Below, piece after piece: positions 1 through 34,256 of a DNA stretch of 34,256 nucleotides (the stretch's first letter is position 1; every line of letters starts with the position of its first letter). The notes below the pieces were generated by a model, which was given only the letters and a program-made list of their open reading frames with translations, ran no database searches and had not been told where the DNA came from. The stretch is from a virus: positions 1-34,256 of IMG/VR virus record IMGVR_UViG_3300026518_000034. One strand, written 5' to 3'. The position numbers were made by a program, and so were the translations under genes.

Positions 1-1
1 A

Positions 2-607
2 AAGGCAGCACCAAGTACAGGTTCATTTTTATGGGACTCTGGAGCATATAAAGTAGATATCGTAGAAGCAGCAATCTTTCAAACAGATTCTGGAGCAACA
101 ATGTTTAAATTAACACTTAAAGACCCTGAAGCAGATAAGACTTTGACTGAGTATGCAAATACTTCATACACTGCAAAATCTGACGATAAAGATGGTGCAT
201 ACAAGAAAGGAGATAAAGTAGAGAACAAATCTGGAGCAAAACTTTTCAAATCTTTACTTTCAGCATTACACCTTGAACCAACAGCTTTAAGTATTTCTGA
301 TGGAAAAACTGAAGCGTATGGAAAAGAAGTTGATGCAAAAATTATCGATTTAGCAGGACGTGGAGTAATTGCACTGGTTCGCCAAGTAGATGATTCTGCA
401 AATAATGAAAAATATGGTGAATCAAATGTTATTGAAGGTTTCGCAGATATCGAAGGAAATATTGATGACTCTCCAGAGCCTCTAAAAAAATGGTTAGCTA
501 AAATTGAGAAAGCACCAGTGCTTGTCAAAAAAGCTAAAAAATCTTCAGGCGTGAAAGAAACTTCGGAAGAGACTAAGAAAGCAGCTGCTGCTATTCTTGA
601 TATTTAA
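2..607 (+). CDS. Probable phage ssDNA-binding protein, 5' truncated by the window
   Basis: The reading frame is open to the first base, so the gene begins outside the window and the ATG at 101 is probably internal. The visible N-terminal part, with a GSFLWDSGAYKVDI stretch followed by alternating hydrophobic strands, resembles OB-fold ssDNA-binding proteins of phage replication modules. The last 40 residues are a Lys/Ala/Ser/Glu-rich flexible tail. The position directly before a helicase and a resolvase fits a replication role. In N4 the SSB also activates hairpin promoters, which would suit the RNA polymerase encoded further right. The family assignment rests on pattern and context only; another DNA-binding structural protein is possible. 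Confidence 0.5.
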   Translation, partial: KAAPSTGSFLWDSGAYKVDIVEAAIFQTDSGATMFKLTLKDPEADKTLTEYANTSYTAKSDDKDGAYKKGDKVENKSGAKLFKSLLSALHLEPTALSISDGKTEAYGKEVDAKIIDLAGRGVIALVRQVDDSANNEKYGESNVIEGFADIEGNIDDSPEPLKKWLAKIEKAPVLVKKAKKSSGVKETSEETKKAAAAILDI

Positions 608-630
608 TTCAGAACCAATTGGTTCTGAAT
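607..630. terminator. Perfect 24-bp palindrome after the SSB gene
   Basis: Two 12-base arms (ATTCAGAACCAA and its complement) meet without a spacer and directly follow the stop codon. It could end the upstream transcript or form a protein-binding site. No strong T-run follows, so intrinsic termination is uncertain. The core is two inverted copies of the GAACCA hexamer that is abundant throughout the window. Confidence 0.35.
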
Positions 631-646
631 TTCTGAAAGATGGAAA

Positions 647-2122
647 ATGAAAGAACAATTAGGGTTTGAATTATCAGGCGAACAAAAAGATATACTAGAG
701 GCTGTAGAATCTAATGATAAAATAATTGGAATTGAAGCAGTAGCTGGTTCATCTAAATCAACAACAATTAAAGCTATTGGCATTAACGAGCCACACAAAT
801 CGATTAAATATATTGTGTTTTCAAAAGAACAGCAACGTGAAGCACAAACTAATTTTCCAAACAATATTGAACCATCAACGATTCATAGCTTAGCATATCA
901 AATAGTAAAACAACATTTTAAAATATCAATTGGTTTTCTTTCATATAGAAATATTACTGGTAGATTTAGATACGAGCAAAAACTTGTTATTATAGATCTA
1001 TTTTCTAAATTCTGCACATCATATGAATTATCTATTGATGAATTCTTTAATACAAATGAGCAGGCAAAAAATGCACCATACGCAAAAAAACAAGTAAAAT
1101 CATTATTAAAGCAAATGATGGATGGTTCACTTCCATTCACTCACGATGCATATCTTAAACTTGCTTCAATTATTATGCATAGCAATCTAAGCACACCAAC
1201 TCAGACAGATCTATTGGTTCTAGATGAATCTAATGATGCTTCAGGAGCAACAATTAGATTATTCGAACTTTATCCAGCAAAGCAGAAACTGTTTCTTGGA
1301 GATAGAGCTCAGACAATATTCAAATTCTTAAATCTTCATTCATCATTTGACCATTATGAAAATATAGCAAAATTTCTTCCATTATCTACTACATTCAGAT
1401 GCTCTATTACAATTGCAGAGAAAGTTCAAGACTTCATGCAATCATATTATAAGCAAAATTTTAAATTTATTGGAGTATCTGAACCAAGTAGCAAGATAGA
1501 ATCTACGATATATATTTCAAGATTCAACGCATCATTAGTTGATAAAATTCTTGAGTTTGCGCAATTAGGAGTAAGTTACAACCTTACTCGACATCCAGAT
1601 AGACTATTCTCATTGTCTAAAGATTTAGCATATGCAAGCAAGAACAATCAGCGAATATCAGATGCAGAATTCAAATACATTGAAGAAGACATTGAAGAGT
1701 ATTATGCAAATTATGATGCACTGAAAGCAGACTTCCCAAATCTTATGAAATATCTTTTTGATATATATCAAGAAGATAAGACAATTGCTAACACTATTAA
1801 AAATGTTGGTAGAGTCGGAAAGTCAGGTATCATTGCAGCATATGAATCAGCAATGGAAAATTGGCACAGAAAAGAACGAAGCAATATTACATTATCATCA
1901 TGCCATGCAAGCAAAGGAACCACATATGATAAAGTCTTTATTATGGATGATCTTAATGAGAAAGTTTTAGAATCTATGATGAATATAGAATTCAATAAGC
2001 AAACACAAGAAGATGAAGATAATATTCTACTTGGATATGTTGCATGCACAAGAGCACGATTTAAAATTGAAAATTGCGAGTTCATTGATTTTGATGAAAC
2101 AACACAATTGCTAATAGATTAA
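647..2122 (+). CDS. Superfamily 1 (UvrD/PcrA-like) DNA helicase
   Basis: This 491-residue protein has the SF1 helicase motif order: Q-motif Q13, Walker A AVAGSSKST at 31-39, motif Ia STIHS at 77-81, motif II DESND at 193-197, motif III GDRAQ at 218-222, motif IV TTFR at 248-251, motif V HASKG at 420-424 and motif VI VACTRAR at 465-471. It should unwind DNA with ATP during replication or recombination. The usual second Gly of Walker A is Ser36, and motif II reads DESND instead of DEAQD. It is shorter than bacterial UvrD (about 720), as many phage versions are. It sits between the SSB and a resolvase. The start has only a weak purine-rich ribosome site. Confidence 0.85.
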   Translation: MKEQLGFELSGEQKDILEAVESNDKIIGIEAVAGSSKSTTIKAIGINEPHKSIKYIVFSKEQQREAQTNFPNNIEPSTIHSLAYQIVKQHFKISIGFLSYRNITGRFRYEQKLVIIDLFSKFCTSYELSIDEFFNTNEQAKNAPYAKKQVKSLLKQMMDGSLPFTHDAYLKLASIIMHSNLSTPTQTDLLVLDESNDASGATIRLFELYPAKQKLFLGDRAQTIFKFLNLHSSFDHYENIAKFLPLSTTFRCSITIAEKVQDFMQSYYKQNFKFIGVSEPSSKIESTIYISRFNASLVDKILEFAQLGVSYNLTRHPDRLFSLSKDLAYASKNNQRISDAEFKYIEEDIEEYYANYDALKADFPNLMKYLFDIYQEDKTIANTIKNVGRVGKSGIIAAYESAMENWHRKERSNITLSSCHASKGTTYDKVFIMDDLNEKVLESMMNIEFNKQTQEDEDNILLGYVACTRARFKIENCEFIDFDETTQLLID

Positions 2123-6485: not shown

Positions 6486-6598
6486 TGAAAAATATTTTAA
6501 ATAAATTAAATGCAGAATCTAAATGTACAGTAGGATTCAAAATGTTTATGTATTTTTCTTTTGCAATTATATGGCTAGAATTTCTTAGGATTGCATAA
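6485..6598 (+). CDS. Small single-pass membrane peptide
   Basis: The 37-residue frame has a basic N-terminus and one hydrophobic segment (MFMYFSFAIIWLEFL). It starts and stops in TAATG overlaps, the latter with nrdA. The function is unknown. There is no lysis context that would justify calling it a holin. Confidence 0.5.
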   Translation: MKNILNKLNAESKCTVGFKMFMYFSFAIIWLEFLRIA

Positions 6599-8739
6599 TG
6601 TCTATTGAATTCGCAGAAAACAAGCAGCATTTAGTTGTTAAGCGTAATGGGTCTATTGAACCATATGACAAAGAGAAAATGTACAAGGTGCTATATTGGG
6701 CATGTGATGGCAGAAAAGCTCTTATAGAGTCTATATTGAATTCTGTGGACATTAAAATCTACAATAAAATTCATATTGAAACTCTATTTGATGAGGTTCT
6801 CGACACTACTTACAATATGATTTCTCAATTAACTCCAGTATATGAAGAAGTAGCTAAAAAGCTATACATTCAGAAGACATACAAGGAGCATTGGGGAATT
6901 AAGCGCAACGAGTATCCATCTCTAATTCAATATTTTGACACATTCGGAAATAATGAACTTATTGATATATATCAATATTTCACTAAAGATGAATTGAAAT
7001 ATCTAGATGAATTTGTAAAGCCAGAGAGAGATCTCAGATCTTCTTATCTCGGATTACAGGTATTCTTTGAGAAATATTCAATTCGTGGAAAAGAACTTCT
7101 ACAGCATGGTTTCATGAGAATGGCTATACAGGCATACATAAATGAACCAAAAGAAAGAAGACTTGGGAAGATAGTAAAACGATACAATAACCTTTCATTA
7201 GGAATATATACTGAAGCTACTCCAAAGTTTAAAAATTCACTCCGCAAGAAGTTCTATGGAGCATCATGCTGTGTTCATAAAATGGATGACAATTCCGAAT
7301 CTATTAATGACACTTGTTCAGACATTGGACAATACAGCAGAGCAGACGGAGGAAATGCATGTGACGTATCAGATCTCAGGGCATCTGGTTCATCTATAAG
7401 CACAGTTGGTTCATCATCAGGACCAGTTCCATTCATCAAAAAAATTGAAGCAGCTGTAAATGCTTTTAATCAAAACAACACAAGACCTGGAGTTTGTGCA
7501 GTTTATTATCCATGGTGGCATGCAAATGTTATGGATATGATTCCATTGATGGATGAAGGTGGCAAGGAGAACCAACGTGCAAGAGATCTAAAATTTGGCA
7601 TTAAGCTAAATCGCTTGTTTCTGCGAGCAATAGAAAGAAATGAAGATGTATATCTATTTGATCCAAAAGTAGTTCCACATTTCAATCATTTGTATGGAGA
7701 AGAGTTCGACAAAGCTTACGATAAAGCAGTTGATGAAAAACTATATTCTAAAGTAATTACTGCAAGAACAATAGCATTGTCAATTGCTAAAGAAAGACTT
7801 GAAACAGGAAATCTTTACATCTTCTTTATTGAGAATGTAAATGAAAATACTCCATTTAAAGATATGATTCATAGTTCAAATCTTTGCACAGAAATATTCC
7901 TTCCAACAAAAGCATCTGAATATATTGATTCAGTAACTACAGAGAATATCTCTACAGGTGAATATAATACTGTTAAGCTTGAAAAAACAGGACTTACAGC
8001 ATTATGTAATCTTAGTTCAATCAATGTAGATGCATGGTATGAAATGACACGAGCACAAAAGGAATCAGTAGCATTAGAGCTTCTAGAAGCATCTGATAAT
8101 CTTATTGATATTCAATCATATCCTACTAAGAATGGTGAGATATTCAATCGTAAATTTAGAGCAATTGGTATAGGGATGAATAATCTTGCATATCATTTCG
8201 CAAAGAATAATATCAAATGGGACAGTAAAGAAGCATTAGATAGAATGGATGAGATTTCTCAATCTATGCACAATATATTTAATGAGAAATCTGAACAACT
8301 AGCTAATGAGCGTGGTTCATTTAACTGGATTGACAGAACCAAATTAAAGAATAGACGCTTTGCAACATTGTTCGCAATAGCTCCAACAGCAACTTCTAGC
8401 CTTATAGCAAATTTGACTGAAGGAATTGAACCAATTACGAAACTTCTTTCTGAGAAGACTGGAACATATTCTACTAAACAATTAGCACCTGATATGTTAA
8501 ATCTTTCAGCAAGTTATGAGCTTTCATCTCAAATTCCAACTAAAGCATTATATCATTTAGCAGAAGTGAGACAAGAATATTTAGATCAAGGACAATCAGT
8601 GAACACATACTCAAAAGATATGACGTCAGCATATGAAGTTATTAGTGATATTGTTTATGCAGAGTCTATTGGACTCAAAGCATTATACTATCTTCAATCA
8701 AATACAGCCATTGAAGGTTGTGATTCATGCGGGAGTTAA
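6598..8739 (+). CDS. nrdA: Class I ribonucleoside-diphosphate reductase, large subunit
   Basis: The 713-residue protein reduces ribonucleotides to deoxyribonucleotides for phage DNA synthesis, working with the NrdB radical subunit encoded next. An ATP-cone lies at about residues 10-90 (VVKRNGSIEPYDKEKMYKVL). The redox cysteines are Cys225 (ASCCV) and Cys470 (TALCNLSS). The active-site NLCTE is at 428-432, with the radical Cys430 and Glu432. The C-terminal CDSC pair (708-711) would be recharged by thioredoxin or glutaredoxin. The length is near that of E. coli NrdA (761). The start is a TAATG overlap. Confidence 0.95.
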   Translation: MSIEFAENKQHLVVKRNGSIEPYDKEKMYKVLYWACDGRKALIESILNSVDIKIYNKIHIETLFDEVLDTTYNMISQLTPVYEEVAKKLYIQKTYKEHWGIKRNEYPSLIQYFDTFGNNELIDIYQYFTKDELKYLDEFVKPERDLRSSYLGLQVFFEKYSIRGKELLQHGFMRMAIQAYINEPKERRLGKIVKRYNNLSLGIYTEATPKFKNSLRKKFYGASCCVHKMDDNSESINDTCSDIGQYSRADGGNACDVSDLRASGSSISTVGSSSGPVPFIKKIEAAVNAFNQNNTRPGVCAVYYPWWHANVMDMIPLMDEGGKENQRARDLKFGIKLNRLFLRAIERNEDVYLFDPKVVPHFNHLYGEEFDKAYDKAVDEKLYSKVITARTIALSIAKERLETGNLYIFFIENVNENTPFKDMIHSSNLCTEIFLPTKASEYIDSVTTENISTGEYNTVKLEKTGLTALCNLSSINVDAWYEMTRAQKESVALELLEASDNLIDIQSYPTKNGEIFNRKFRAIGIGMNNLAYHFAKNNIKWDSKEALDRMDEISQSMHNIFNEKSEQLANERGSFNWIDRTKLKNRRFATLFAIAPTATSSLIANLTEGIEPITKLLSEKTGTYSTKQLAPDMLNLSASYELSSQIPTKALYHLAEVRQEYLDQGQSVNTYSKDMTSAYEVISDIVYAESIGLKALYYLQSNTAIEGCDSCGS

Positions 8740-8741
8740 AT

Positions 8742-9767
8742 ATGAAACATATAATATCACTAGAAAAAAACACATCAAATAGATTATTTGATCCAAGTTC
8801 AGACGGAGGAGTATTCCTTCGCACTGATAATGTAGAGCATAGGATTCTCAAAGATCTTTGGGAAAAATCAAATGCTCTATTTTGGACAGTCAATATGATT
8901 AATTTTGACAAAGACTCTATCAAGAATATTCCTGAAAATGCTCAGAGAATGTTTAAGTTGAATAACGGGTATCAATCTCTTATGGACTCTGGAGTAGTTG
9001 GCTTATACAATCATCTAGCACTTTTAACATCAAGCAATGAAGTAGCTCTATCATACCAACAAATTGCATTCATGGAGTCAATCCATGCAACTAGCTATTC
9101 AGATGGCTTGCTTCAGATGTTTGATTCTGAAGCTACTGAAATAATTGATGTAGTATATACTGATCCTGTAGTAAAGACACGATTATCATCTGAGATAGAT
9201 TATTCTGATCAGTTAATAGCTGAACCAAACCAGAGAAACACTGCTCTTGCAATAGCAGCTACATATCTTCTTGAGTCAATTAAATTTCCATTTAGTTTCT
9301 TTGTCACTTTCTCAATCAATAAGGCATATAGCAACTGCATTAATGGTTTTGCTCAACTTATATCTCGTATCGCTACAGATGAATTAGAAATTCATGTACC
9401 TACGAATAAATATATTTTGAAAAAGCTTATCAAAGAAGGTGCAATATCAATTACTGAAATTGAGGAAATGGCATTAGAGATTCAATTTCAGGAGAAATCC
9501 TGGAATAGATATCTTCAAGAAGATGGACCAATTCCTGGATACAATATAGCTATTGGTGATGCATTCATTGAATACTTCACAAATAAAACATTACGTGATC
9601 TTGGTTCTAGTATTGAACCAATTAAGCCTAATGATACGATTCAATGGTTCAATCATATTAGAAATCCAGATAACAAGCAGGTGTCTCAGCAAGAAATGAA
9701 ATCATCTCAATACCAAAAAGGTGTTATTAAAGACGACTTATATCTATTTGATAAGGAGAATAAATGA
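8742..9767 (+). CDS. nrdB: Class I ribonucleotide reductase, small (radical) subunit
   Basis: I chose ATG 8742, just after the nrdA stop and behind GGGAG; an ATG at 8727 inside nrdA adds five residues. The 341-residue protein carries the di-metal ligands Asp82, Glu112, His115, Glu178, Glu214 and His218 and the radical tyrosine Tyr119 in ESIHATSY, spaced as in E. coli ExxHxxxY. The last ligand pair reads DELEIH, so Glu214 and His218 are four apart, where E. coli NrdB has three (DEALH). The acidic C-terminus (DDLYLFDKENK) would dock to NrdA. Confidence 0.93.
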   Translation: MKHIISLEKNTSNRLFDPSSDGGVFLRTDNVEHRILKDLWEKSNALFWTVNMINFDKDSIKNIPENAQRMFKLNNGYQSLMDSGVVGLYNHLALLTSSNEVALSYQQIAFMESIHATSYSDGLLQMFDSEATEIIDVVYTDPVVKTRLSSEIDYSDQLIAEPNQRNTALAIAATYLLESIKFPFSFFVTFSINKAYSNCINGFAQLISRIATDELEIHVPTNKYILKKLIKEGAISITEIEEMALEIQFQEKSWNRYLQEDGPIPGYNIAIGDAFIEYFTNKTLRDLGSSIEPIKPNDTIQWFNHIRNPDNKQVSQQEMKSSQYQKGVIKDDLYLFDKENK

Positions 9768-9982
9768 GTCAGATAATGATAAAGACACATCCTAAATCTA
9801 TTTTTACAAGATTCCATAACAATTCTCAATTTGCAAATGAAGTATTTTCATCTTATTATCCAAACATAAGTTCAAAACCAATAGACGTACTTCAAGTTAA
9901 ATTTCTTGATAGCAACCTAAGCTATAATGTTTTAATAGAATTTATGTATAAAGATATAGAAAAACAGGAAAAGCAAAAATGA
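9764..9982 (+). CDS. Hypothetical protein
   Basis: The 72-residue product starts in an ATGA overlap with nrdB. It is beta-rich with a Lys/Gln-rich tail and is not recognised. Coupling to nrdB suggests coordinated expression only. Confidence 0.6.
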   Translation: MSQIMIKTHPKSIFTRFHNNSQFANEVFSSYYPNISSKPIDVLQVKFLDSNLSYNVLIEFMYKDIEKQEKQK

Positions 9983-10161
9983 CAATACTTGAATATGAGA
10001 AAAAGCTACAGATGATTAGAACATCTGATGCTTCATATGAAATAAAAAGAAAAGCAATTCAAGATCTTGAGAGAAAATTCAATACAAAATCATCTCAAGA
10101 AATTGCAATTAAGCAAATGATTGAGTCAGCACCAGATACAGATGATATAGGAGACAACTAA
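9979..10161 (+). CDS. Hypothetical helical protein
   Basis: The 60-residue product starts with an ATGA overlap and is a charged, probably coiled helix (LEYEKKLQMIR...IKRKAIQDLERKF) with an acidic tail. It resembles no named family that I can support. Confidence 0.55.
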   Translation: MTILEYEKKLQMIRTSDASYEIKRKAIQDLERKFNTKSSQEIAIKQMIESAPDTDDIGDN

Positions 10162-10470: not shown

Positions 10471-10559
10471 TGTCAGTAGATGAATTAGTTTTAGTAGGTG
10501 TAATATGGAACGCTATATTACAGACAGTTTGGTTCATAAGAACCAAAGATAAACATTAA
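10470..10559 (+). CDS. Small membrane peptide
   Basis: A 29-residue frame starts in a TAATG overlap. It is one hydrophobic segment (LVLVGVIWNAILQTVWFI) with a positively charged end (RTKDKH), giving an N-out topology. The function is unknown. Confidence 0.45.
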   Translation: MSVDELVLVGVIWNAILQTVWFIRTKDKH

Positions 10560-10948: not shown

Positions 10949-11103
10949 CACTGCAAGAAGCTCTAGAAATGCTTAAAAAGCTTAATGAACTCAAATGTAC
11001 CAATGGAAAGAGATATCTTCATATTTCTAAGCTATTGAACTCTGATGCTACAACTCACAACATTCAAGAAGCAAAAAAATTTCTTACTTCAATAGATGGC
11101 TAG
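10945..11103 (+). CDS. Hypothetical protein
   Basis: The 52-residue product starts in an ATGA overlap with the MazG-like gene and is not recognised. It is helical at both ends. It is the last gene of the plus-strand module, and its stop lies inside the convergent hairpin and overlaps the end of the opposing giant gene. Confidence 0.55.
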   Translation: MTLQEALEMLKKLNELKCTNGKRYLHISKLLNSDATTHNIQEAKKFLTSIDG

Positions 11104-11112
11104 TAGCCATCT
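11094..11112. terminator. Bidirectional hairpin at the convergent boundary
   Basis: AGATGGCT and AGCCATCT form a perfect 8-bp stem with a three-base loop. It contains the stop codons of both converging genes. On the minus strand a run of seven T follows about 20 bases later. It probably limits read-through in both directions. Confidence 0.5.
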
Positions 11113-14100
11113 ACTAATTGTGTGATAGGTACATCTACAGAATTTTCGATAAGACCAACTGTATTATTGATCCAATTGAATGGATTCAATCTCCTACTCC
11201 ATGAGCTAAACATTGAACTTTCTAGAGTATCATTAGGTAAATCAAAAAATGTTTTACCAGCAGAATCAGCAATAACTTTAGCAGTATTATTTTTAATCAA
11301 CTTAAGATTTACTCTTTGGATATTAGCAAAATATTTATAGAATGCTTGAGGACCAAGTTTGTCAAGCCACTTCACATATTTACTATTAATGATTTTACTA
11401 TAATTGATAAAATTGTCAGTTACATCTCTTAATGCTTGCTTTTTATCTGTTCCATTCTCTATAGCATACCAATATGTAGCTGCTCTAAAATGCAAATCAC
11501 TTTCTTGGGTTATATTCAATAATGCTTTTCCGAGAGCACTATTTCTTGTAAGAAACATATTATTGACTATATCTTTTATTACTTTATTCTCTCCAATAGC
11601 ACTATCATAAAATTCTCTTTCTATTTTATTTACTATAATATTATTATCTTCTTCAAGATTAACATCTTCTACAATTGTTTGATATAATCCAGCTTCAATA
11701 AGTGGCACTAATGGATTAGATTTTAATTCTACAGTAAGGTCTGCAAGCTCTTTTTCTAATTTAGCTTTTTTAATACCTTCATGCATTTCAATCTTTCTTT
11801 CAAGATCTCTTCTTCTTTTTTCATCTTTCTTCCATTTGTCAAGACTTTTTTTACTTAATATCAAATACTTCAATGCATCAGATATAGGCATTCCACTAAA
11901 GAATAAAAATTTAGCATTACTCAATATATTTCCAATAATTGTTTTTGGAAGTTTTATTACTACCATGCTTTTTGTAATTGCCATTAATGCCATTGCATAT
12001 TGCTCAGCAAGACGAACATATCTTTGTTGTTTTACAGGAAGATTCTTTATGAATTTTATATTAGATATTGATGCTTCATTGTATCCAAATAATTGCTTCA
12101 TTAAATCTTTTCTTATATATATTTCTTTGCGTGGTTCAGGATCTTGATTTCCAGGATTACGTTTTATGTCTTCAAGTCTATTCTTTCGTATAATATACTT
12201 ACGTGTGGCTGGTGGAAGTAACCCCCATAATTCCTCACCTTCTGATTGCACTGAATATCTTCCACTTTCATCTGCTCCAAGCTGTTTTAATTCAGCTTTT
12301 GTTTTCATTGTTTCAGATGCATATACTCTCACAAATTCTTTATCTAGCATATCTTTTGTTGAACCATCTTTATTCATTTTTTTAAGTGTTTCATATTTAT
12401 CTTTATATATTAGATCAATTAGTTCTTCATTATTAGTATCAGTTTCAACTTGAGTATTTTTTCTTCCAAATGTTCTTGATAGTAAATCTGTACCACGTTG
12501 CTCAAGATCTATATATTTTTCTTTATCTTCAAGTGTATTTTCATATCTAAAATCAATTATATTTCCATCAAGATTATACACAGGATACATCTGTTCATTC
12601 TTTCCGTTTCGTGCAGCATACTTAATTGCATCACTAATCTTTTTTCTAAGAGAATTTTCACTTAATGCTGGATTGTCTTGCTTAATTTTTTGACTAAGCA
12701 ATAATCCTTTTACTTGTAATCTCTGGAGGCCAAATGCCCCATCAACTCTACTTGTAATTCCTGCATTATCATTATAATATACTCCATATTTTATTTCTGA
12801 TATATCTGCATCATCTTTGTGCATAGGACCATCTAATTTATATCCAAGATCTTTCATCTTCTTTAATGTATATGCATCAAGTGGAGCATATACTAAATCT
12901 TTATTTGCATCATTTCTCTCATGCAATTCTCCCTTTACCATCTCTTGAACCACGCCATGTAAACCCCAATCATACTTAGATGTCTTGTTCATTCCTTTAG
13001 CAAGTAGTAGAAAACTAGATACTCCATTTGCATCTATATCTATAAGTTCTTTAATATTATTTTTATATTCAGGACTAGTATCTTTTAGTGCATATAAGCT
13101 TATCAATTTATCTATGAGCATAGATGTATCTTCTATGCTGTATGATTTGTCATATGAATTTTCTCCATACGGAATAGAATATCTGGTCCCAAAGTGTCTC
13201 GCAATATTTTCTGCATTACTTCTCAAGCCTTTCTTAGTTCGCATATATTTTGCAACACTCTTCGCATCTTTTATCATAGTGGAACCAATTAGCTTTTCAT
13301 TATAGTTAATATTCATAATATCATTTTCAAGATCTTTGATATCTTTATCTAATTTACTTGGTTCATCTATATAATATTTAAGCACTTCAGCATCAGTACT
13401 TACAGCTTGAAAATCACTTCTTAGAACAACTTTATTTAATGCTTTGTTATACTTTAAATTTTTATTTGAGAATATATCAATCTTTGTAAATCCTACAGCT
13501 ATATCAGCCATAGTTCCTTTTACATACATATCTCTCATTCTATCTAAATGACTCTTGAACATCATTGTTCTATCTGTTATTTCTATAAGTGTTTTTCTCC
13601 CTGAACTAAAATCAGCAATCAAATCTTGAAGGAGTTTATAATATTTACCACCAGCCTCTCTCATTGCAGTATCTAGATTAATTCTGTATTTTATATACTC
13701 ATCTGTATCTTTATCTGATATAGTTGAGTATATTTTAGTGAGAGCTGGAAGTGCTTTTGTAAAGTGCCAAGTTCTATACATTCGGCCTTTAGTTTTATCT
13801 GTAGCTTTTTTCATCTCACCTTGTGCATATTCAAATAATTTATGCAGAGTCTTTTGGTTCTCTATCTCTTGATCTTTTGTAAGCTTTCCGCTTTCTTTTA
13901 CATCTTTAGCTTTTAGGTTTAATTTTTCCAATGAATTGTTCACTACTCCATGAATTAGATCATCAGCTTTATCTGCAGTATTATTCATCCATTCAGAGAA
14001 TTTCTTATCTACTCTAACTCCAGCATTTTCTTTGACTAAATTGGCTTTAGTATAGTTTATTTCTCCAAGCTTGACTGCAAGTCTTGTAAGTTCTGCATCT

Positions 14101-15293
14101 ATATTCTTTCCACGACCACGCTTTACATTTATATTGTGAAGAAAATCTTGTAATGCTTTCATAGCTTTATAGAACAATCTGCTTATAACTGAATCTCCTT
14201 GTTCAGACGAGTTATCATATTTTGTATCTACATTTGCAAGAGCATTTTTTACATATTTATTAGTGAGTCCATATGCAAAGAATTCTTGTATTCGTCTATT
14301 TGCATCTATTACTGTAGAATCATCAATCTTTCCTTCAAATATATATTTATACATATCTTTAGCTTTTTGTATCTCTGCTTCATTATATGGACCTTCATCT
14401 TCAGGAAGAAAATCTTTGTATGTTAATTGCTTTTTAGCTGTTCTATACAGTGTATATAGATCATCTTTTACATCTTGTCCTAGAACGCCAAGTTGTTTAT
14501 TGAATAGTGTACGAATATAAGCATGCACAGTCTCATGGACCAATGCTTCTTCATTACTCATAATAAATCTATTTCTTGCAATTTCAGATATATCTGCAGT
14601 AGCAACTCTTATTTGTCCTGTAACTGGATTAAATTCTCCAACTGGTTCCAGTATATTCTTTGCAATATCTTTTGTTACTGTAATTTTCATGACTGATAAT
14701 TCTTTCACAAGCTTTTGCATCTTTCTACTTAGATTTTGAAGATGAGCACTGTGCTCAGCGTCCCAATGACCATTAGCACTATTTCTGTCTATCTCTGCAA
14801 GCTTATTTTGAACCAAATCAATTCTTTCATTTAATATATCAGATGAACCAATAGCTTCATCCACTGTTTCACCATTTGAATCTACATTGAATAATGATTC
14901 GATATCTTCTTCGTATCTCGGTGTATTAATGATTGCACGTTCAAGGTCACTAGATGTCCTACCATATGACTGAAGACCTTCTGTAGTCTCTTTATATCTG
15001 ATAGGAAGTCCATTCAATAGCTCTATAGTAATTGTTCCATCTTCTGATATATCAATATCTGTTACTATGTCTGAATTAAGGTCAGATGAGCCACTCTCAT
15101 AGTATGTTATAACTCCTGCATTGAGTTTTATTTGCATATTCATAGCTCTATTATGAAGAACTATTGCCTCTCTGGCATATCCATCTAGTTCCTTTGTGTA
15201 ACTAGATTGGTTTGTTTTTTTTAATTCTAATACTACATCTTCAACATCATCATTTGATAGATATATTCCTCTTGCATAATTAGTACATGTCAT
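11100..15293 (-). CDS. Giant virion protein, C-terminal part of the virion RNA polymerase, with zincin motif
   Basis: This 1397-residue protein follows the RNA polymerase gene after three bases, with GGAG eight bases before ATG. HETVH at 253-257 with Glu337 in EFFAYGL has the layout of a zinc metallopeptidase. Around residues 1250-1340 the sequence QESDLHFRAATYWYAIENG followed by NYSKIINSKYVKWLDKLG matches a conserved region of large phage polyvalent proteins. By position and size it corresponds to the C-terminal domain of N4 gp50, needed to package the enzyme. It is probably packed and ejected with the DNA; the peptidase could cut cell-envelope or virion proteins. The function is inferred. 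Confidence 0.65.
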   Translation of the reverse strand: MTCTNYARGIYLSNDDVEDVVLELKKTNQSSYTKELDGYAREAIVLHNRAMNMQIKLNAGVITYYESGSSDLNSDIVTDIDISEDGTITIELLNGLPIRYKETTEGLQSYGRTSSDLERAIINTPRYEEDIESLFNVDSNGETVDEAIGSSDILNERIDLVQNKLAEIDRNSANGHWDAEHSAHLQNLSRKMQKLVKELSVMKITVTKDIAKNILEPVGEFNPVTGQIRVATADISEIARNRFIMSNEEALVHETVHAYIRTLFNKQLGVLGQDVKDDLYTLYRTAKKQLTYKDFLPEDEGPYNEAEIQKAKDMYKYIFEGKIDDSTVIDANRRIQEFFAYGLTNKYVKNALANVDTKYDNSSEQGDSVISRLFYKAMKALQDFLHNINVKRGRGKNIDAELTRLAVKLGEINYTKANLVKENAGVRVDKKFSEWMNNTADKADDLIHGVVNNSLEKLNLKAKDVKESGKLTKDQEIENQKTLHKLFEYAQGEMKKATDKTKGRMYRTWHFTKALPALTKIYSTISDKDTDEYIKYRINLDTAMREAGGKYYKLLQDLIADFSSGRKTLIEITDRTMMFKSHLDRMRDMYVKGTMADIAVGFTKIDIFSNKNLKYNKALNKVVLRSDFQAVSTDAEVLKYYIDEPSKLDKDIKDLENDIMNINYNEKLIGSTMIKDAKSVAKYMRTKKGLRSNAENIARHFGTRYSIPYGENSYDKSYSIEDTSMLIDKLISLYALKDTSPEYKNNIKELIDIDANGVSSFLLLAKGMNKTSKYDWGLHGVVQEMVKGELHERNDANKDLVYAPLDAYTLKKMKDLGYKLDGPMHKDDADISEIKYGVYYNDNAGITSRVDGAFGLQRLQVKGLLLSQKIKQDNPALSENSLRKKISDAIKYAARNGKNEQMYPVYNLDGNIIDFRYENTLEDKEKYIDLEQRGTDLLSRTFGRKNTQVETDTNNEELIDLIYKDKYETLKKMNKDGSTKDMLDKEFVRVYASETMKTKAELKQLGADESGRYSVQSEGEELWGLLPPATRKYIIRKNRLEDIKRNPGNQDPEPRKEIYIRKDLMKQLFGYNEASISNIKFIKNLPVKQQRYVRLAEQYAMALMAITKSMVVIKLPKTIIGNILSNAKFLFFSGMPISDALKYLILSKKSLDKWKKDEKRRRDLERKIEMHEGIKKAKLEKELADLTVELKSNPLVPLIEAGLYQTIVEDVNLEEDNNIIVNKIEREFYDSAIGENKVIKDIVNNMFLTRNSALGKALLNITQESDLHFRAATYWYAIENGTDKKQALRDVTDNFINYSKIINSKYVKWLDKLGPQAFYKYFANIQRVNLKLIKNNTAKVIADSAGKTFFDLPNDTLESSMFSSWSRRLNPFNWINNTVGLIENSVDVPITQLVDGY

Positions 15294-15296
15294 ATG

Positions 15297-18200
15297 TTAT
15301 TCTCCACAATGCTTGTCTACAGTTTTTTTATCTGCGACTTTCTTTGTTGCTATTTTAGCATCTTTTTTGATATTAGTGCTTAAGTCCTTTGTAATTATAG
15401 TCTTAATAATTTTGTTAATATCATCAGTAGGCGTAATCTTTTTCTCATATTTACTTTGTTCATTATCATCATAGTTCGGATTATATTCGTATTTAGCAGA
15501 AACAGTATTTCCATCTCCATCCAACACCTCAGCATATGCATGTTGCACATTTAGTTTCTTGGAAAATATTTCAGCTCTATTATTCTCGGACAATATTTCA
15601 ACTTCATGCAATTGTTTTAGGTGTTGAGTGATAGCCTCAAGATAATCATAATTTTCTTTATTGTGCACAATTGACAGCACATCAAGATCGCCTGATGTAA
15701 TTTCTTTTGATTTCATTGTTCTTATGAAAGATTGCATTGTCTCATGAACCAAATGATAATCTTTGTTTAACTCAAGCCATTGCTTGTTGTATTCTCTGGT
15801 TCCGTCTATTACATCATCTATATTGAAGTAGTTTGCATCGTGCACTCCAAGTGCAATATATTTACTTAATACTTTTGCTTGTATACTTCCATCGAAGTAG
15901 TGAATTGGAACCACTGCGCCAGAGCTATACGCTTCGATAAGTTTATACACTTCCATTTGTGAGTGATCCATTGTTTTATTCTTGAGTCTCAGTCCAGGAC
16001 TTGCAACATTTCCAAGTAGCTCAACATCTCCATCTCTACCAGATGCTTTTAGTTTTTTTGCTATCAAGAGTCGAGACTTAATTCCTTCATCTGTGTCGAG
16101 AACACTATTTAGTACTGGGAATACATCAGATAGATCCTGAATCATATCAGTCATTTCTTTTTCTGTTATTGGAGCCACAAGTCTTTTAGCTTGCTCTTTA
16201 GTACTTCCACTTTCTTCCATCAGGTCTTTGACTTTTTTTTCATAAGCTTCACGTATTTTTCTATCAAGAACATTCTTGGCCAGTCTGAATTGGAATGTAA
16301 ATATCTCATTCATATTTTCTGTGAGAGCAATAAATGGTTTATATTTATCAGACAGTACTTTTTCAAGCACAACACCAAATGCATTTTTATTTTTTTTGCT
16401 AGGAATTATGTATCCATTTAATTTGTTTAATTCATTTTGGTGAAGACGAAAATCTTTTGTTTTAGTGAATATTCTGCCATAGTCTTGGTTCCCAATTGCA
16501 ACTCCTATGTCTTCAAGTTCTTTGCGAAGCTCTGAACCACGTTGCTTTAATGCTTCAGATTCACTAGTTCCTTTCTTTGCTTTTGCATATTGATTTTTAA
16601 CACTATAGTATTCATTGACTTTTGAATAGAATTCATTCTCTGCAATTCTAGCTGTAGATTTCACGATTGATCTGATAGAACTTCCATAGTTTAACACCAT
16701 GAATGGGTTCTTCATGAAATTTCTACTTATCTTTATGATCTTTTCGCCATCCATCTTTATCTTCGGATCAATCAGTTTTAATATTGCAGATGGAACTTTT
16801 ACTCCAGAAGCATTAAGCGCATTAGTTAGTTCTTTAGCTGGTTCCTCATATGAATCTTCATTTCCGTCTTCAACTCGTTTACCATAGCTTGATTTATCAT
16901 TGGTAAATACTCCAACTTTTTCAAGTTCTGCTATTTGAGCATCAGTATCTTTCCCGTACAGAATAGGTGCTTGCATATTTTTAATACCATATCCTGATGT
17001 AATAGCATCTGTCTCAAGCATAATTCCTGTTTTGAATTTAAGTCCATGTGCTGCTGCATAGTTATATCTTAGAAGCTCGACAAGTCCACTTATAGCATGT
17101 TCAGGTTCTCCAAACATGCCACCATGGTTTTTTATTGCATATTGGACCAAGCCTTTCAAATCTTTCTTGAATTGAGGACTATCTTCATATTGTGATACTG
17201 TTTCATATTCAAGCTCAGCCATAGCATTACCATCATATCCATTACTTAAGTCATTGATTGTTTTCTCTATAATACTATCTTTTCCATCGAGCAATGTTTT
17301 TGCTGTTTTCTTATCTACTGGTAAATCAAATGCTTGTCCTAGCATGAGTTTAAATAGTTTATGAGTAGTATCATCCTCAGCATAATTTACGACACTTTCT
17401 CTATTGTATACTGAATATCTATGAAGTTTTTTATCTTGCCAGTTAAGTTTATTGCTATCTATCATAAATCTATTGTTTGTGATCACTTTCCATTTTGCGT
17501 ACATTTCAGTATCACTTCTAAATTCTTGATATGCTTCATCTAGATATTTGATCGAATCAGATATCATGTTATTTTTGCCACGAACTGCATCTTGTGTAGC
17601 TACGATTACATTTGCAGGATCTTTTGCTCCAAGTATTTCTTCGAGTAAGCTTATGTTTCCATTTGAACCAATCTCAGTTTGCAATGTGCTTATTGCGTTG
17701 TAGAATGATTTTCTGAATTTATACGGGGTACTACTTTGTTTGATTATTGCATCTTTATGATCACTACTTACCACATCTCCAATCATTCCACTTATTCCAT
17801 CATTTATTATCTCATTTTTTGACGGAACAGCTAGTTCTTTTGTAGTATACACTCCATGTTTATTGTCAATATTTGCAGCACTGTCATATAATTGAGCAGC
17901 AGATCTTTTGTCAAGCTTTGAGCCAATCTCTAGATGTGCATCTTCATTTGCATCTTTAAATTTTGATTTTTTTGTGAAGTTGATTATCTTTGCAATATTT
18001 TTTTCATCATCTTTTATGGCTATATCAGCTTCGCCTATTTTTAAATATCCATCATTCTCAAGTGATCTGATTGCTAGAAGTCCAAGCTCAGTCTTGAGTT
18101 TTGCTTCAAGCATTTTAGTGTTGACTGCATCATTTCCTTTAGACGCTTTTATTCCAAGAAGTTTATATGCCTTGGTCCCTATCATACTTACAGCACTTGC

Positions 18201-18755: not shown

Positions 18756-21700
18756 TATTCACATCCTATTATTTTTTTGATAGACTCTTTTAATGAGTCG
18801 CTTAATTTTTTATCCAGCAAGAATGTTGCTAATGCTTTTCCATTGTACTTATTCTTGGAACCAAGCACATTGCTTGCAGTTTCAGTAACTTCATTTTTGA
18901 CAAGCTTATCAGTTTCTTGCTTTAATTCATCTTTTAGCTTAGCATTTTTTTCTTTTAGTGATTCAGTTTTATCTGATTTTGCTTTTATGTTCTTGAGATC
19001 TCTTTTTATATACTCTTTCTCAGTATTAGGTAGGTTGTCATACTTTTCTTGAATTGTTTCTCCAGGTTTTACTTTCTTCTTGCCTTTGAGTACAACTTTT
19101 ACTCCCTCTCCTTTATTCATTTTTCTAGTAAGTTGTCTTCGCTCATTTGTATCTGATATTTCATATTCATATTTATATGCTGCTATTCTTCTTTCTAGAT
19201 GCTGCCAAGCTTTTTTTAGTAGTCTTGGTATCTCTTTTGAGTTTATATCTTTTTCAAGTTGCTCAATCTCTTTGTTGTTTTCAATGATCTCTGTTCTTAG
19301 ATCACTTACTTTTTTTAATACTTTGAGCAACGCACTAGACTTATCTAATTCATTTTTATTATATTTTGAGTATACATAATCTATTGCTTCTTTGAATTTA
19401 TCAGATCCATTGCCATATAGTTCTTTCACGAATTTTTCTATTCCATCAATATCTTCTTTGGAACCAAGTCGATCTATCTCTTTTGTTATTTCACTTTCTT
19501 GCTTTGGTTCAGATCTTGTGCTCTCTTCACTTTTTTCATTTGTTTTATCAGCTCTTCCGATTCCATCTTCTGTTTGCTCAGCTTCAGCAGTTCTTGTTTT
19601 AGTTTCTTCATCTTTTGTCTCCTGTTTTTTTTGTATTTGAATTTCTCCATCTTTGACTCTTGAGTATTCATTGTTAGGAAATCCTCTTGACTCTTGTTCA
19701 TATTCATTGAACTCATCTTTAGGTTTTGCTTTTTCTTTTGTATTTGTTTTAGCTACAGCAGGCTTGCTTTCAGCAGCTTGTTGTTCAGTAGGATTTATTT
19801 CTTCATTGTTATCACTTGGGATATCTATTTTAGATAGATTAAGTGGTGGTTCTTCAGTAGTAGTATCATTTGTAAATTCAGTATCTACATTTGTACTACT
19901 ATCAATTGGTTCACCTTTTATCATTGAATATAGCTTATCTATTAGCTTCTGCTCATTTTCAGCTTGAGTGATGATTCCATTTGATTGTGGTCCATGATAT
20001 ATGAATTTCTTTGAACCAAATTCATCATTACCATATTCTACTTCTACTGGGCGTTTGTCTTTATTATATTCATACTGTTTCTTGGCATTTTGCATTAGAG
20101 CAAGTTTTCTTCGCTGAGTTGCTACAAAGTTGTCAAGGCTTTTTTCTAGTGGTTCACGATACTTTGCATCTATACTTGGATTGAGTAATCTGTTAGCATA
20201 GTACATTATTCCAGTTCTGACTCTTCCGCCTTTCCCGACTCCACCCCATATCTTCTGAGTAAGCACATCGTTCATTTTGATACTTTGACCATCTGGAACC
20301 ACAGCTCCATGTTCATTAGCACCAGAAGTGTATGTATTCTCGGCTATAAGCTTTTCCATCTCAAGTAGTTTTTTGCGTGGTTCAAGCTGTTTACGCTCTG
20401 CATCATCAGATTTTGACATCTCATTTTCTACTTCTTGCAAGTCTTTATTTATATCATCAATAGGTCTATTATTAAGTTTCTGATTGTAATCTCCAGCTAC
20501 AACATTTCTTATTGCGTCTAGTTGAACGAACTGTTTCCCAAGCTCATCTCTTGATGCAACTAGATTTTGGTATTCTTCATCAAGCTTCCCAGAAGATTCT
20601 TTTTCTTTTATTGTATTATCTATATCAAGTATCTTATTAGCGACCTCATCTATCTGGGCACTATATACATTGTTTGCATGTTTCTTTTCTTCATCTGAAA
20701 GTACTGGCTCTTTTCCATTTTGCATATTAATTATATGCTCTTTGAGTTTTCCAGACATTGCAAGATCGTTGAATACTTGTACGCTATTCTTTAATTCATC
20801 AATAGATTTCTCACTATCAGATTTCTCAGGTGTTAATTTATTTGAATCCACCTCTGACAATCCAGGAGCAGTTACTTCTTCAGTATTTTTGGAACCAAGA
20901 TTGATATTGCCAATCTCATGCATAGTTTGAGTTGCGCCGGCAATATGTCCACCAGCAATTCCTTCTATTCCAGATACTTTAGCGTCAAGTTGGTTCTGGG
21001 CATTTGAGATAATACTTTTAATATCATCACCTTTTTTTCCAGTGCTAATTTGTTTTCCAAGTATATCGGCCCATTGTTGTAGATATTCCTCAGTTCCTTC
21101 TACTGCTGCACCTTTTCCTGAAGCGGATGCAATCCTTCCAGCAGTTTTTAGCACAGATTGCCATAATTTATCAGTTTCTTTCTTTCCAAGTACTGACACT
21201 GAATCCTTAAGCGCAGCATGAATAGCTGGCTTCATAATTATTTTTGCACTCTCAAGTCCTATATATGTTTGTGCAGCAGCAGATGGTACAGCTATTGAAA
21301 TATCTTTTAGTCCAGCATGTTTTTGGTTCTCAGCTTCATTTCTTGATGCAAGCGTGTCATTTACCATTCCAGTGAACATTGCTGTAGCTCCAGCTCTTTC
21401 AATTCCTTTCATTAGTACTTTTTGAGCTAGGTTCATTCTTTTGCTTGCGATATCTGCGTATTTTTTAGCTTGAGAAGCCTTCCCTGCTTTTAGCAGTTCT
21501 GCAGCTTTTTCATATGTTTTTGCAATCTTGCTTCCGTTCTTTACTGCAAACAATCCTGCTTTAATTTCTCCAGCTCCGAACATAAATGTCATTACGCTTC
21601 CAACTACATTTCCTACTATGTTTCCACTTGTTACAACTTTATATGCAGCTTTACCATAGTCTCCATTTTCAATATCTTTTTCAATATTTTTTTGCTCTTT

Positions 21701-22840
21701 TGCGGTTTTATCCTGGTCTACATTGAATAGTGTATCTGACATCTTTCCAATATTTTCTGTAGTATAATATTCTTTTGTATCATTCCATCCATCTCCTCCG
21801 AGATAGCTTGCAACTGCATTCATCTTGAAGCTATGATTTATAGCATCTTTTTTATCTGCTTCAAGTTGTTTCTTTTCTTCAGGAGTTTTAGCTTGTCCTA
21901 TCTTGTAGTTATAATATGCTTCCTCACCTTTTCCTATAAGCCAATCAGGAACATCATTAAATATTGCATCTATTGCCTGACCAGTGGTTCCGACAATACT
22001 ACTTCCAGCACCCTTTGCAACAGCCTCAGCAAAGTTATCGCCATTTGTTTTTTCGAATGCTTTTGATATGTCAGCAGCATCTTCAGATGTTAGCATATTC
22101 TGCTGACCTCCATTCTGGATACCATTAAGAACTGCTTTAGCTTTGTTTGAATTTACATTTGTTTCAGGATTTATAGCTGACTCTATAGTTACTGGCTTTC
22201 CATCTGCGCTTGCATATGACATAAGCTCTCTACCATATGAGTCTGGTTGGTTCCAGTCTTTACTTTTAATTGTAATATTTAGTGGATCTTTTTCAATAAC
22301 ACCTTTGTCATTCATATATGAACCAGTGAGATTAGTTGGCTCAATATTTCTAATTAAAGGTGCTTTCCATCCAGATTCATTTCCTGCAAGGTCTGCAGCT
22401 TTTTGTATCATTTGCTGATTTCCGACATCTATCATATCTTGAGTTGTCAAATCATTTACATTCTTTCCGAGTGCGTTAGCTACATATTGCAATTGACCAG
22501 ATTTATTTTTGTTGCTTTTAACATATGCAAGTGGATCTGAGTATATTGGATTGTTATTGCTATCATATCCTGTGATATGAGCAGTCTCTACAGCATCGTA
22601 GGCATATGCATTTGGAGCTAGCACTTCCCTAGAGGATTTTCCGTTAAGGCTCTTTGTGTATTCAGTATCTGCATCTTGCATTCCAAGAAGTGTGTCATTT
22701 TTATATCCACCAAGGACATCTAGTTTTTGTTGTGATCTTTGTTGAAGTGCATTAGCTTTGTTTTCAACAGCAGACTTTGAACCAAATGCATTGATTTCAT
22801 CTGATAGATATTTTGAAGGGTCTCTTAGATATTGAGGCAT
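18755..22840 (-). CDS. Giant virion protein, N-terminal part of the virion RNA polymerase
   Basis: The 1361-residue protein directly precedes the polymerase gene. The N-terminal 300 residues are Asn/Gln/Ser-rich. A hydrophobic stretch at 406-433 (GNIVGNVVGSVMTFMFGAG) and a further non-polar helical region to about 600, ending GTEEYLQQWADI, could contact the membrane. About 720-1130 is polar and disordered, and the last 200 residues are a Lys/Glu coiled coil. It matches in place and size the N-terminal domain of N4 gp50, thought to help injection. No enzyme motif is seen. It starts after AAGGA in AAGGAACCACAATATG, downstream of an extended -10 promoter. Confidence 0.6.
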   Translation of the reverse strand: MPQYLRDPSKYLSDEINAFGSKSAVENKANALQQRSQQKLDVLGGYKNDTLLGMQDADTEYTKSLNGKSSREVLAPNAYAYDAVETAHITGYDSNNNPIYSDPLAYVKSNKNKSGQLQYVANALGKNVNDLTTQDMIDVGNQQMIQKAADLAGNESGWKAPLIRNIEPTNLTGSYMNDKGVIEKDPLNITIKSKDWNQPDSYGRELMSYASADGKPVTIESAINPETNVNSNKAKAVLNGIQNGGQQNMLTSEDAADISKAFEKTNGDNFAEAVAKGAGSSIVGTTGQAIDAIFNDVPDWLIGKGEEAYYNYKIGQAKTPEEKKQLEADKKDAINHSFKMNAVASYLGGDGWNDTKEYYTTENIGKMSDTLFNVDQDKTAKEQKNIEKDIENGDYGKAAYKVVTSGNIVGNVVGSVMTFMFGAGEIKAGLFAVKNGSKIAKTYEKAAELLKAGKASQAKKYADIASKRMNLAQKVLMKGIERAGATAMFTGMVNDTLASRNEAENQKHAGLKDISIAVPSAAAQTYIGLESAKIIMKPAIHAALKDSVSVLGKKETDKLWQSVLKTAGRIASASGKGAAVEGTEEYLQQWADILGKQISTGKKGDDIKSIISNAQNQLDAKVSGIEGIAGGHIAGATQTMHEIGNINLGSKNTEEVTAPGLSEVDSNKLTPEKSDSEKSIDELKNSVQVFNDLAMSGKLKEHIINMQNGKEPVLSDEEKKHANNVYSAQIDEVANKILDIDNTIKEKESSGKLDEEYQNLVASRDELGKQFVQLDAIRNVVAGDYNQKLNNRPIDDINKDLQEVENEMSKSDDAERKQLEPRKKLLEMEKLIAENTYTSGANEHGAVVPDGQSIKMNDVLTQKIWGGVGKGGRVRTGIMYYANRLLNPSIDAKYREPLEKSLDNFVATQRRKLALMQNAKKQYEYNKDKRPVEVEYGNDEFGSKKFIYHGPQSNGIITQAENEQKLIDKLYSMIKGEPIDSSTNVDTEFTNDTTTEEPPLNLSKIDIPSDNNEEINPTEQQAAESKPAVAKTNTKEKAKPKDEFNEYEQESRGFPNNEYSRVKDGEIQIQKKQETKDEETKTRTAEAEQTEDGIGRADKTNEKSEESTRSEPKQESEITKEIDRLGSKEDIDGIEKFVKELYGNGSDKFKEAIDYVYSKYNKNELDKSSALLKVLKKVSDLRTEIIENNKEIEQLEKDINSKEIPRLLKKAWQHLERRIAAYKYEYEISDTNERRQLTRKMNKGEGVKVVLKGKKKVKPGETIQEKYDNLPNTEKEYIKRDLKNIKAKSDKTESLKEKNAKLKDELKQETDKLVKNEVTETASNVLGSKNKYNGKALATFLLDKKLSDSLKESIKKIIGCE

Positions 22841-31951: not shown

Positions 31952-31992
31952 TAGATATAATTGAACCACCCTAGAGTGGTTCTATATATCTA
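31952..31992. terminator. Long hairpin between two virion genes
   Basis: Outer arms TAGATATA/TATATCTA and inner arms GAACCAC/GTGGTTC with loop CCTAGA form a 41-base hairpin. It reaches into the stop codon of the upstream gene. No T-run follows on the minus strand, so it may process or stabilise mRNA, or attenuate expression, instead of terminating it. Confidence 0.45.
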
Positions 31993-32564: not shown

Positions 32565-32576
32565 GTTAAGTTATAG

Positions 32577-32604
32577 TTAATCTGACCTTAATAGGTCAGA
32601 TTAA
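32577..32604. terminator. Hairpin after the major capsid gene
   Basis: TTAATCTGACCT and AGGTCAGATTAA form a perfect 12-bp stem around TAAT, right after the capsid stop codon. A hairpin here would keep capsid mRNA high relative to downstream genes. No T-run follows on the minus strand. Confidence 0.6.
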
Positions 32605-32616
32605 CAAATGGTTGGC

Positions 32617-33801
32617 TTACTTAGAAGCACAAGTATAGATAGCAAGTAATTTCTCCTCCTCAAGAATCAATCCCGCATAGAAGAAATTGTATGAGAAGAA
32701 ACCTTGAGTTCCATAAGGGTTAGAAAGTTCAACAGAGCTTGGAGCTTTAGAGTTGAATTTAATTTTACCTTTACCTTTAAGGCCAACAGTACCAAATGCA
32801 CCTTCAGTTGGGAAAAGGATTGCGTGAACATCAAACTTACCAGTAAGGCTGTCACCAGTATATGCTAAAGTTCCAGAGTAAGCAGTAGTTCCATCACTTA
32901 CTGTTGCACCAGCACCAGCATATACTACAGCAGCTTCAGACTCGATGAATCTTACTTCGTGCATTGCACCAACTTCACCTTCAGCAAGGCTTGCAGCACC
33001 AGCATATTTATGAGCAGGAACATATACGTACTCAGTTTCAGCACCTGTACCACGAGTTAAGTTCTCAAGGTCAGATTTGACATCTGCATCTACGATTGCA
33101 TAGAATGCTTTTGCGATTGGTTGTGTACCAATTTTAGTTGAACCAGTTACGATAGAAGTATTTTTCTTAGCACGGTTACGAACTAGTTTACGAACACCTT
33201 TACGAATCAAGTCGTAAGATACTTTCCAAGCTGCATCGTCAGAACCATCTGCTGCTGCACTAGTACCAATTGTAGCTTTAGAAGTTGCAACACCAGAATA
33301 CATTACTGTACCAGTTCCAAGCATATCTAATTGAATTAGATCTTCAAATCTACTATTTGCAAGCTCACCAAGTTCCTCACGGTAACGCACTTGAATTGCA
33401 TCTTCAGAAAATAACTCTACTTCATCAGTATAGTCAATCATCTCACCATAGCGTGCAAGAGTTGCTTCTACTGTTACTTTTTGGAGTGAACGCTTATTTA
33501 CAGCTCCAGCACCCTCAGCAAGTTGTGCATTAGTTAGTGAAGTTGAGACTTCATCAGCAGTACGAGCAGTCATGTATCCTTTTGCTGCAAAATCAGCATC
33601 ACCAGTAGTGCGGTCATACATATGTAAGAATTTACTTACCTTATAAGTTTTACCCATTTTTGTAGGCATTGATTTTCTAGAAGAAAACTGTCCATACACA
33701 TTTACTCTGTTTGCTGCTTTAATACCAGCTCTGTCATAATAATGTGTGATTGTATTTGCGCCTGCAGTACTGTTAGTACCATCTCCGTATACGTTTGCCA
33801 T
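32617..33801 (-). CDS. Major capsid protein, N4-gp56 family
   Basis: The 394-residue protein is near the length of the N4 capsid protein (about 400). The N-terminus (ANVYGDGTNSTAGANTITHYYDRAGIKAAN) is followed by PTKMGKTYKVSKFLHMYD, a domain of the N4-gp56 major capsid family (HK97 fold). The middle holds EATLARYGEMIDYTDEVELF and DLIQLDMLGTGTVMYSG. AAGGA lies eight bases upstream of ATG. Base use is more GC-rich (GCA, GGT, CGT codons) than in its neighbours, as expected for a strongly expressed gene. Confidence 0.9.
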   Translation of the reverse strand: MANVYGDGTNSTAGANTITHYYDRAGIKAANRVNVYGQFSSRKSMPTKMGKTYKVSKFLHMYDRTTGDADFAAKGYMTARTADEVSTSLTNAQLAEGAGAVNKRSLQKVTVEATLARYGEMIDYTDEVELFSEDAIQVRYREELGELANSRFEDLIQLDMLGTGTVMYSGVATSKATIGTSAAADGSDDAAWKVSYDLIRKGVRKLVRNRAKKNTSIVTGSTKIGTQPIAKAFYAIVDADVKSDLENLTRGTGAETEYVYVPAHKYAGAASLAEGEVGAMHEVRFIESEAAVVYAGAGATVSDGTTAYSGTLAYTGDSLTGKFDVHAILFPTEGAFGTVGLKGKGKIKFNSKAPSSVELSNPYGTQGFFSYNFFYAGLILEEEKLLAIYTCASK

Positions 33802-33837
33802 AATTTAATTCCTTTTTATTGTGGCTCAGTCAAGCTT

Positions 33838-34256
33838 TTACAGCTTGTCCTGAAGTTGAGCATACCACTTCTCGAAGTCTTCATCAGAATCCTCTAAGTA
33901 GTCGATAGCTTTTTTGGTTCCAGTGCCTTTTCTAGTTGGCACTGCACTTTTTCGTTTGTCGGCTTTTTGCTTCACTGATTTACGCTTCTGTTCAGCTTCC
34001 TTGACTTTCGCCAATTCAGCTTCTCTTGCAGCTTTTGCTTCAGCCTCCACTCTAGCTTGCTCTTCTGTAGCACGTTGAGTTTGCTCAATCTCTGCGAAAT
34101 ATACTTTTGCAGCTTCTTTGTAGTATTCAAAATCTGATTTGGAACCACCATCATAGACTTTAAGTTTTGAAGCAATTGGTTGCACTTTATCATACATTCC
34201 GTTTTTAACGTCAATATGTAATGCTTTGATAGTTGCAGGATTAGAACTAAGTTCTT
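33838..34256 (-). CDS. Capsid-adjacent protein, 5' truncated (N4 gp57 position)
   Basis: The frame is open to the window edge. It reads SSNPATIKALHIDVKNGMYDKVQPIA before the ATG at 34197, so that ATG is probably internal. The visible 139 residues include a Glu/Ala/Lys coiled coil and a Lys-rich linker ending EKWYAQLQDKL. A charged helical protein just upstream of the capsid gene could be a scaffold or head-assembly protein. Position fits N4 gp57. Confidence 0.5.
   Translation of the reverse strand, partial: ELSSNPATIKALHIDVKNGMYDKVQPIASKLKVYDGGSKSDFEYYKEAAKVYFAEIEQTQRATEEQARVEAEAKAAREAELAKVKEAEQKRKSVKQKADKRKSAVPTRKGTGTKKAIDYLEDSDEDFEKWYAQLQDKL

Follow-up and report, generated by a model that had tools for sequence, protein, structure and literature searches.

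The hexamer GAACCA and its complement TGGTTC occur 103 times in the viral DNA analyzed here, IMG/VR record IMGVR_UViG_3300026518_000034, the full 34,256 bp of which (positions 1..34256) constitute the window. Judged from its sequence, the window represents 34 kb of the genome of an N4-like phage (Schitoviridae type), and the class of word carried by such phages follows their primase (gp43, phrog_2135) and not their capsid or virion RNA polymerase. The copies are probably template sites at which the phage helicase-primase of the gp43 family starts primers. Literature searches of an open-access library turned up no earlier report of the word, which does not prove novelty.

A strand-symmetric excess that acts on the DNA

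The copies are distributed along the entire window and on both strands, 51 as GAACCA (+) and 52 as TGGTTC (−), with 41 to the left of 11.1 kb and 62 to the right (an earlier note on this DNA had tallied 40 and about 60), and no regional strand switch that might mark an origin was seen. The roughly ten-fold excess claimed in that note is borne out by an order-1 Markov model (10.2 expected, 10.1-fold); the expectation is 11.5 at order 0, 17.9 at order 2 (5.8-fold) and 33.8 at order 3 (3.0-fold), and at each of these four orders no other hexamer reaches its z. At order 4 the excess disappears into the model, since the 5-mer GAACC is enriched in its own right. Single-mismatch neighbors of GAACCA are mostly near expectation. 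The flanking bases are biased, both on the 5′ side (T 60, G 26, A 15 and, rarely, C 2) and on the 3′ side (A 55, C 26, G 14 and, rarely, T 8), and these preferences yield the consensus TGAACCAA, present in 32 copies where 1.3–2.4 are expected (Markov orders 0–2).

Codon choice had been suspected of being bent toward the word, and this suspicion holds. When synonymous codons were permuted with each protein and its codon usage kept, 21.6 ± 3.6 copies were obtained in coding sequences, and 28.2 ± 4.1 when the neighboring bases were fixed as well, both well short of the 93 observed. Nor are other hexamers equally enriched, as GAACCA ranks first under the codon null (z 18) and the next three words (GGTTCA, GGAACC and AACCAA) are its own overlaps. 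The listed open reading frames (ORFs) read the GGA ACC ACA codons singled out at 1916, 2641 and 4958 in frame. In the direction of the gene, frames 0, 1 and 2 hold 22, 13 and 8 copies of GAACCA (codon null 12.6, 0.7 and 0.6) and 3, 10 and 37 copies of TGGTTC (codon null 1.6, 1.0 and 5.2), such that 6 of 6 strand and frame classes are enriched. Selection or bias therefore acts on the DNA and not on the protein or the codons.

Between genes, some copies form inverted pairs: GAACCAATTGGTTC (612..625, copies at 612 and 620), directly after the first gene and also resembling a terminator stem, TGGTTCATAAGAACCA (10530..10545, copies at 10530 and 10540), and GAACCACCCTAGAGTGGTTC (31963..31982, copies at 31963 and 31977). 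The palindromic copies described in the earlier note are thus real, the first at the coordinates given there and the last displaced by one from 31962/31976.

Word class follows the primase

N4-like phages share one primase family, phrog_2135 (gp43 of N4), within which an N4 type and an AD45 type can be distinguished. Among loci collected around each subtype, a "CCA" word is present at 54 of the 69 N4-type loci (at least 14 kb) and at 0 of the 43 AD45-type loci. At z > 2, GAACCA is found in 67% and AACCAA in 77% of the N4-type loci, compared to 0% and 2% of the AD45-type loci, which instead carry TAGCTA, AGCTAC, TAACTA, AACTAG or ACCTAG (TARCTA, ANCTAG, ANCTAC). Some of the loci are near-identical contigs or derive from the same contig; after dereplication, a CCA word remains at 40 of 50 N4-type and 0 of 32 AD45-type loci. 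On the primase tree, AD45-type loci with CTAG words and those with CTAC words form clusters, as they would on the tree of any vertically inherited gene.

Individual genomes were compared by a symmetric-word analysis, in which an excess was required in both orientations relative to genes. In phage N4, GAACCA is the top strand-symmetric hexamer, with 203 copies in genes across the whole genome where 62 are expected, and it is also the top hexamer of OLIVR1. Related words mark phi50-12 (TAACCA, AACCAA and GAACCA), phiCB2047-B (AACCAA) and Zuri (AACCAA and GAACCA); TAACCA, AACCAA, GATCCA and GTACCA are among the words of N4-like relatives, and the CCA class is found in N4-like phages of Escherichia coli, Agrobacterium and Pseudomonas. 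Across 37 capsid-related records GAACCA is mostly close to the control word. Four of these relatives (G003, G004, G015 and G027) have a TAGCTA-like word, AD45 and G018 have AACTAG and ACCTAG, genome G036 has GGATCC and GATCCA, and genome G044 uses a different one, AGTACCAA (60 vs 5.2 and 45 vs 4.4). GAACCA is flat in 50 kb of E. coli K-12 (16 vs 22), T7 (27 vs 20) and T4 (23 vs 22.5), and at expectation in the controls CP1 and CP2 (unrelated Xanthomonas phages served as controls).

Several further word patterns were encountered. One capsid relative (L059), a fragment that does not reach the primase, has a moderate GAACCA excess (21 vs 7.5) with different flanks. In the Alteromonas phages PT11-V19 and R22Y (L083, L248), CCCGGG occurs 14 times vs 0.7 and 7 times vs 0.4 under the codon null. 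GATCCA is lacking in the genes of N4 (L247/L479; 0 vs 38 expected) and of T7 (L251; 0 vs 18), which is consistent with GATC avoidance in coliphages. A triple-motif scan of viral contigs was set aside, its top scorers being mostly one-strand TGAACCA clusters that were read as genes for repetitive proteins.

In several genomes capsid and primase disagree, which makes it possible to tell the primase apart from the structural genes. The window, with its overlapping contig G043, and G036 combine AD45-type capsids with primases nearer to that of N4 and have CCA words, and G037, in which the capsid leans to N4 and the primase is of the AD45 type, has no GAACCA excess. The DNA polymerase and the virion RNA polymerase were rejected as readers of the word: neither the polymerase of N4 nor that of AD45 was detectably matched in G036, and the virion RNA polymerase of the window is G003-like yet its word is N4-like.

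The first gene of the window has its only homolog, among the genomes compared, in G036, where the gene order is primase, Sak4, SSB-like gene and helicase. Based on the AD45-like capsid, the CCA word and this homolog, a primase of the G036/N4 type was predicted upstream of the window. Contig G043 (IMGVR_UViG_3300026518_000038) overlaps window positions 1–632 (96.7% over 632 nt) and carries the predicted gene (L470, 6217–8355), followed by a Sak4-like gene (8725–9453) and an SSB-like gene (9845–10507), directly upstream of the window. It is in the overlapping contig, and not in the window itself, that the gp43-family primase lies beside Sak4-like and SSB genes. G043 holds 60 + 41 = 101 GAACCA copies. 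The primase of G044, which has a different word, is 43% identical to that of G043. Two side observations concern these contigs: within about 5 kb of G043 (L473, 4542–9643) there are 15 successive + strand GAACCA copies while the remaining contig is mixed, and the G036 primase (L210, 7448–10069, −) is interrupted, within the helicase-domain Walker A motif, by a Hint/intein-like insertion.

Proposed priming sites and competing explanations

The earlier note left a list of readings open: a modification target, a primase or packaging signal, or a genome-wide protein-binding site. The evidence favors a primase site most among these, since word class and primase subtype go together across the family, a pattern borne out by the genomes in which capsid and primase are mismatched. 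We infer that the primase is the reader, that TGGTTC is the template strand and that what is selected for is priming of the Okazaki type. The primase would read 5′-T(T)GGTTC(A)-3′ (5′-TTGGTTCA-3′ for the consensus) on the single-stranded template exposed at the fork, and would initiate a short primer reading (G)AACCA. Selection would maintain one site per ~0.5–0.8 kb on each strand, through synonymous codon choice within genes and as inverted pairs between them, and either strand could thus be primed as the lagging strand anywhere. With a change of primase lineage the word would change as well, ending in CCA with the N4/G043 type and taking the form A-N-CTA with the AD45 type. For lagging-strand priming, chance occurrences of a six- to eight-letter word would be sparse, and a need of this kind would produce the density that is observed. 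Site spacing is similar in five records with differing words (0.4–0.8 kb per strand).

Features of the protein and biochemical precedents can be set beside this proposal. Considered as a candidate archaeo-eukaryotic-type primase, N4 gp43 has a PriCT_1 domain above the cut-off; the model of the G043 primase has an MCM-like AAA+ N-terminus, and the N4-type primases share DxD, mostly TT[KR]xH, and FR[IL] motifs; a sequence search of solved structures with the primase returned nothing significant. In our reading, PriCT-1 corresponds to the helix-bundle domain. That domain has been reported to bind primase recognition sites, and the primase-polymerase of phage NrS-1 recognizes the template 5′-TTTGGTTA-3′ (PMC8718748). 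This template almost matches the TTGGTT core seen here and the TTGGTTA of phi50-12, and the NrS-1 enzyme unites primase, helix-bundle and helicase domains, although in a different order, gp43 having the helicase first. The second precedent is T7 gp4, for which GGTC is the primase core. The template word has the form xxGGTxC in both, and in the same test applied to T7 5-mers GGTCA ranks first and GACCA sixth; gp4 differs in being a Toprim/zinc-type primase with a shorter word.

Several observations weigh against the priming proposal. Several N4-type loci, mostly GC-rich, give no signal (14 of the 69 lack any such word), and genome G032, with a divergent AD45-leaning primase (25%), has words that do not fit the scheme. 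Even spacing is significant only on the + strand of the window and the − strand of G044, and the sites of G036 are clumped. A fold search with the C-terminal primase region gave no significant match, the primase domain of monkeypox E5 (E 0.098) being suggestive only. Enrichment of the core in T7 is only ~1.6-fold. The NrS-1 genome carries its 8-nt site only twice (PMC7102993), presumably marking an origin, unlike the ~100 copies per 34 kb in the window, and its primase-polymerase also primes at GTG (PMC8718748). Finally, the primase is linked to genes for Sak4-like and SSB-like proteins, either of which could be the reader. As a separate observation on G032 (L215–L218), its words are CGTACG, CCCTGC and CTGCAG, outside an A-N-C-Y-A scheme, and it has a Sak4-like gene.

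That the reader is another protein of the replication block (the Sak4-like annealing protein or SSB), or an unrecognized DNA-binding protein acting, for example, in recombination-dependent replication or genome compaction, is possible, if rather unlikely. Such genes accompany the N4/G043-type primase, and the partly palindromic words of G036 and G044 (TGGATCCA, TGGTACCA) would suit a protein that binds double strands. To our knowledge, however, annealing proteins and SSB have no known sequence specificity, and AD45-type phages also carry words, though most gave no Sak4 match.

A context-dependent bias of mutation or repair during phage replication, without selection for the word, is improbable. 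It would equally act at the level of DNA, whatever the strand or frame, and being itself linked to replication it is hard to separate fully from priming. But a six-base specificity would be required of it, along with a switch whenever the primase type changes, and the one-step precursor words are not clearly depleted.

Very little probability attaches to a Chi-like recombination hotspot or to a host motif, such as an uptake sequence, copied by the phage. As with DNA uptake sequences, Chi and HIP1-type repeats, a short word is spread genome-wide with some copies in intergenic inverted repeats, and the three pairs in the window resemble uptake-sequence terminators. The polarity of Chi is not found, and the balance of strands that the earlier note had held against a polar site was confirmed (51 vs 52). 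Unlike those repeats, the word follows the lineage of the phage primase and not the host: the same class recurs across N4-like phages of the three host genera named above, and E. coli K-12, the host of N4, has no excess in 50 kb, though the host of the window may differ. A host-driven motif is disfavored by this cross-host evidence together with the E. coli control.

Slightly less probable again is that the word serves restriction escape or is targeted by a modification enzyme of the phage or its host. A short defined word on both strands would suit such a target, but no methyltransferase of the three families searched (N6/N4, PF01555; C5, PF00145; Dam-type, PF05869) was found in the window, G043, G036, G044 or N4, and as far as we know modification targets are not enriched as a rule. 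A packaging signal fails to account for ~100 copies spread over both strands. An artifact of codon or dipeptide usage is scarcely credible, for although Glu-Pro (GAA CCA) and Gly-Ser (GGT TCx) placements give the largest shares of copies, the codon-preserving nulls reach 22–28 vs 93, the rarest placements are the most enriched (xGA ACC Axx 13 vs 0.7, xxG AAC CAx 8 vs 0.6) and the AD45-type relatives are flat for GAACCA.

Genes of the window and wider meaning

The assignment of the window to the N4-like phages draws on its virion RNA polymerase, its capsid and the primase family phrog_2135, and N4 has the same top word. The region of the predicted virion RNA polymerase, an N4-like hallmark, spans three successive ORFs (11100..22840, −): the ORFs at 11100–15293 and 15297–18755 match phrog_2206 (E 3e-122 and 6e-84), and the third (18755–22840) matches the region in the same place in relatives. 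In N4 this is one protein of 3500 amino acids, unlike the 1397, 1152 and 1361 amino acids of the window ORFs; in Alteromonas phage PT11-V19 it is also split over more than one gene. The predicted N4-family major capsid protein (32617..33801, −; phrog_1357, E 1.6e-83) is of the AD45 type, another difference from N4, being ~70% identical to that of Alteromonas phage AD45 and ~27% to that of N4; among named phages it is closest to that of Alteromonas phages AD45-P1 to P4, and N4-family capsid matches extend to 457 phage records. An assignment to Crassvirales by way of the virion RNA polymerase was abandoned once the capsid gave N4-like matches.

On the + strand, the first gene (1..607), truncated by the left end of the window, is SSB-like, as judged from its full copy in the overlapping contig (L470, 9845–10507; phrog_743, E 1.2e-6), and a search of named phages gave no match to it. 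It is followed by a putative UvrD-like DNA helicase (647..2122; phrog_1967, E 2e-55; PF13361) and by the predicted large and small subunits of ribonucleotide reductase (6598..9767; phrog_84, phrog_86). No tRNA genes were found in the window.

It is an evenly balanced proposition that N4-like phages hold a lineage-specific, genome-wide priming code, in which words of 6–8 bases are kept at intervals of ~0.6 kb on both strands by means of synonymous codons, and in which the word co-evolves with the primase gene and is replaced along with it when replication modules are swapped. Should this be the case, the specificity of a primase would be readable directly from phage genome sequences, and the six- to eight-letter preference of a replication enzyme would shape codon choice across a genome. 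Exchange of a primase would then leave the recipient with mismatched start sites, limiting the movement of replication modules between phages.

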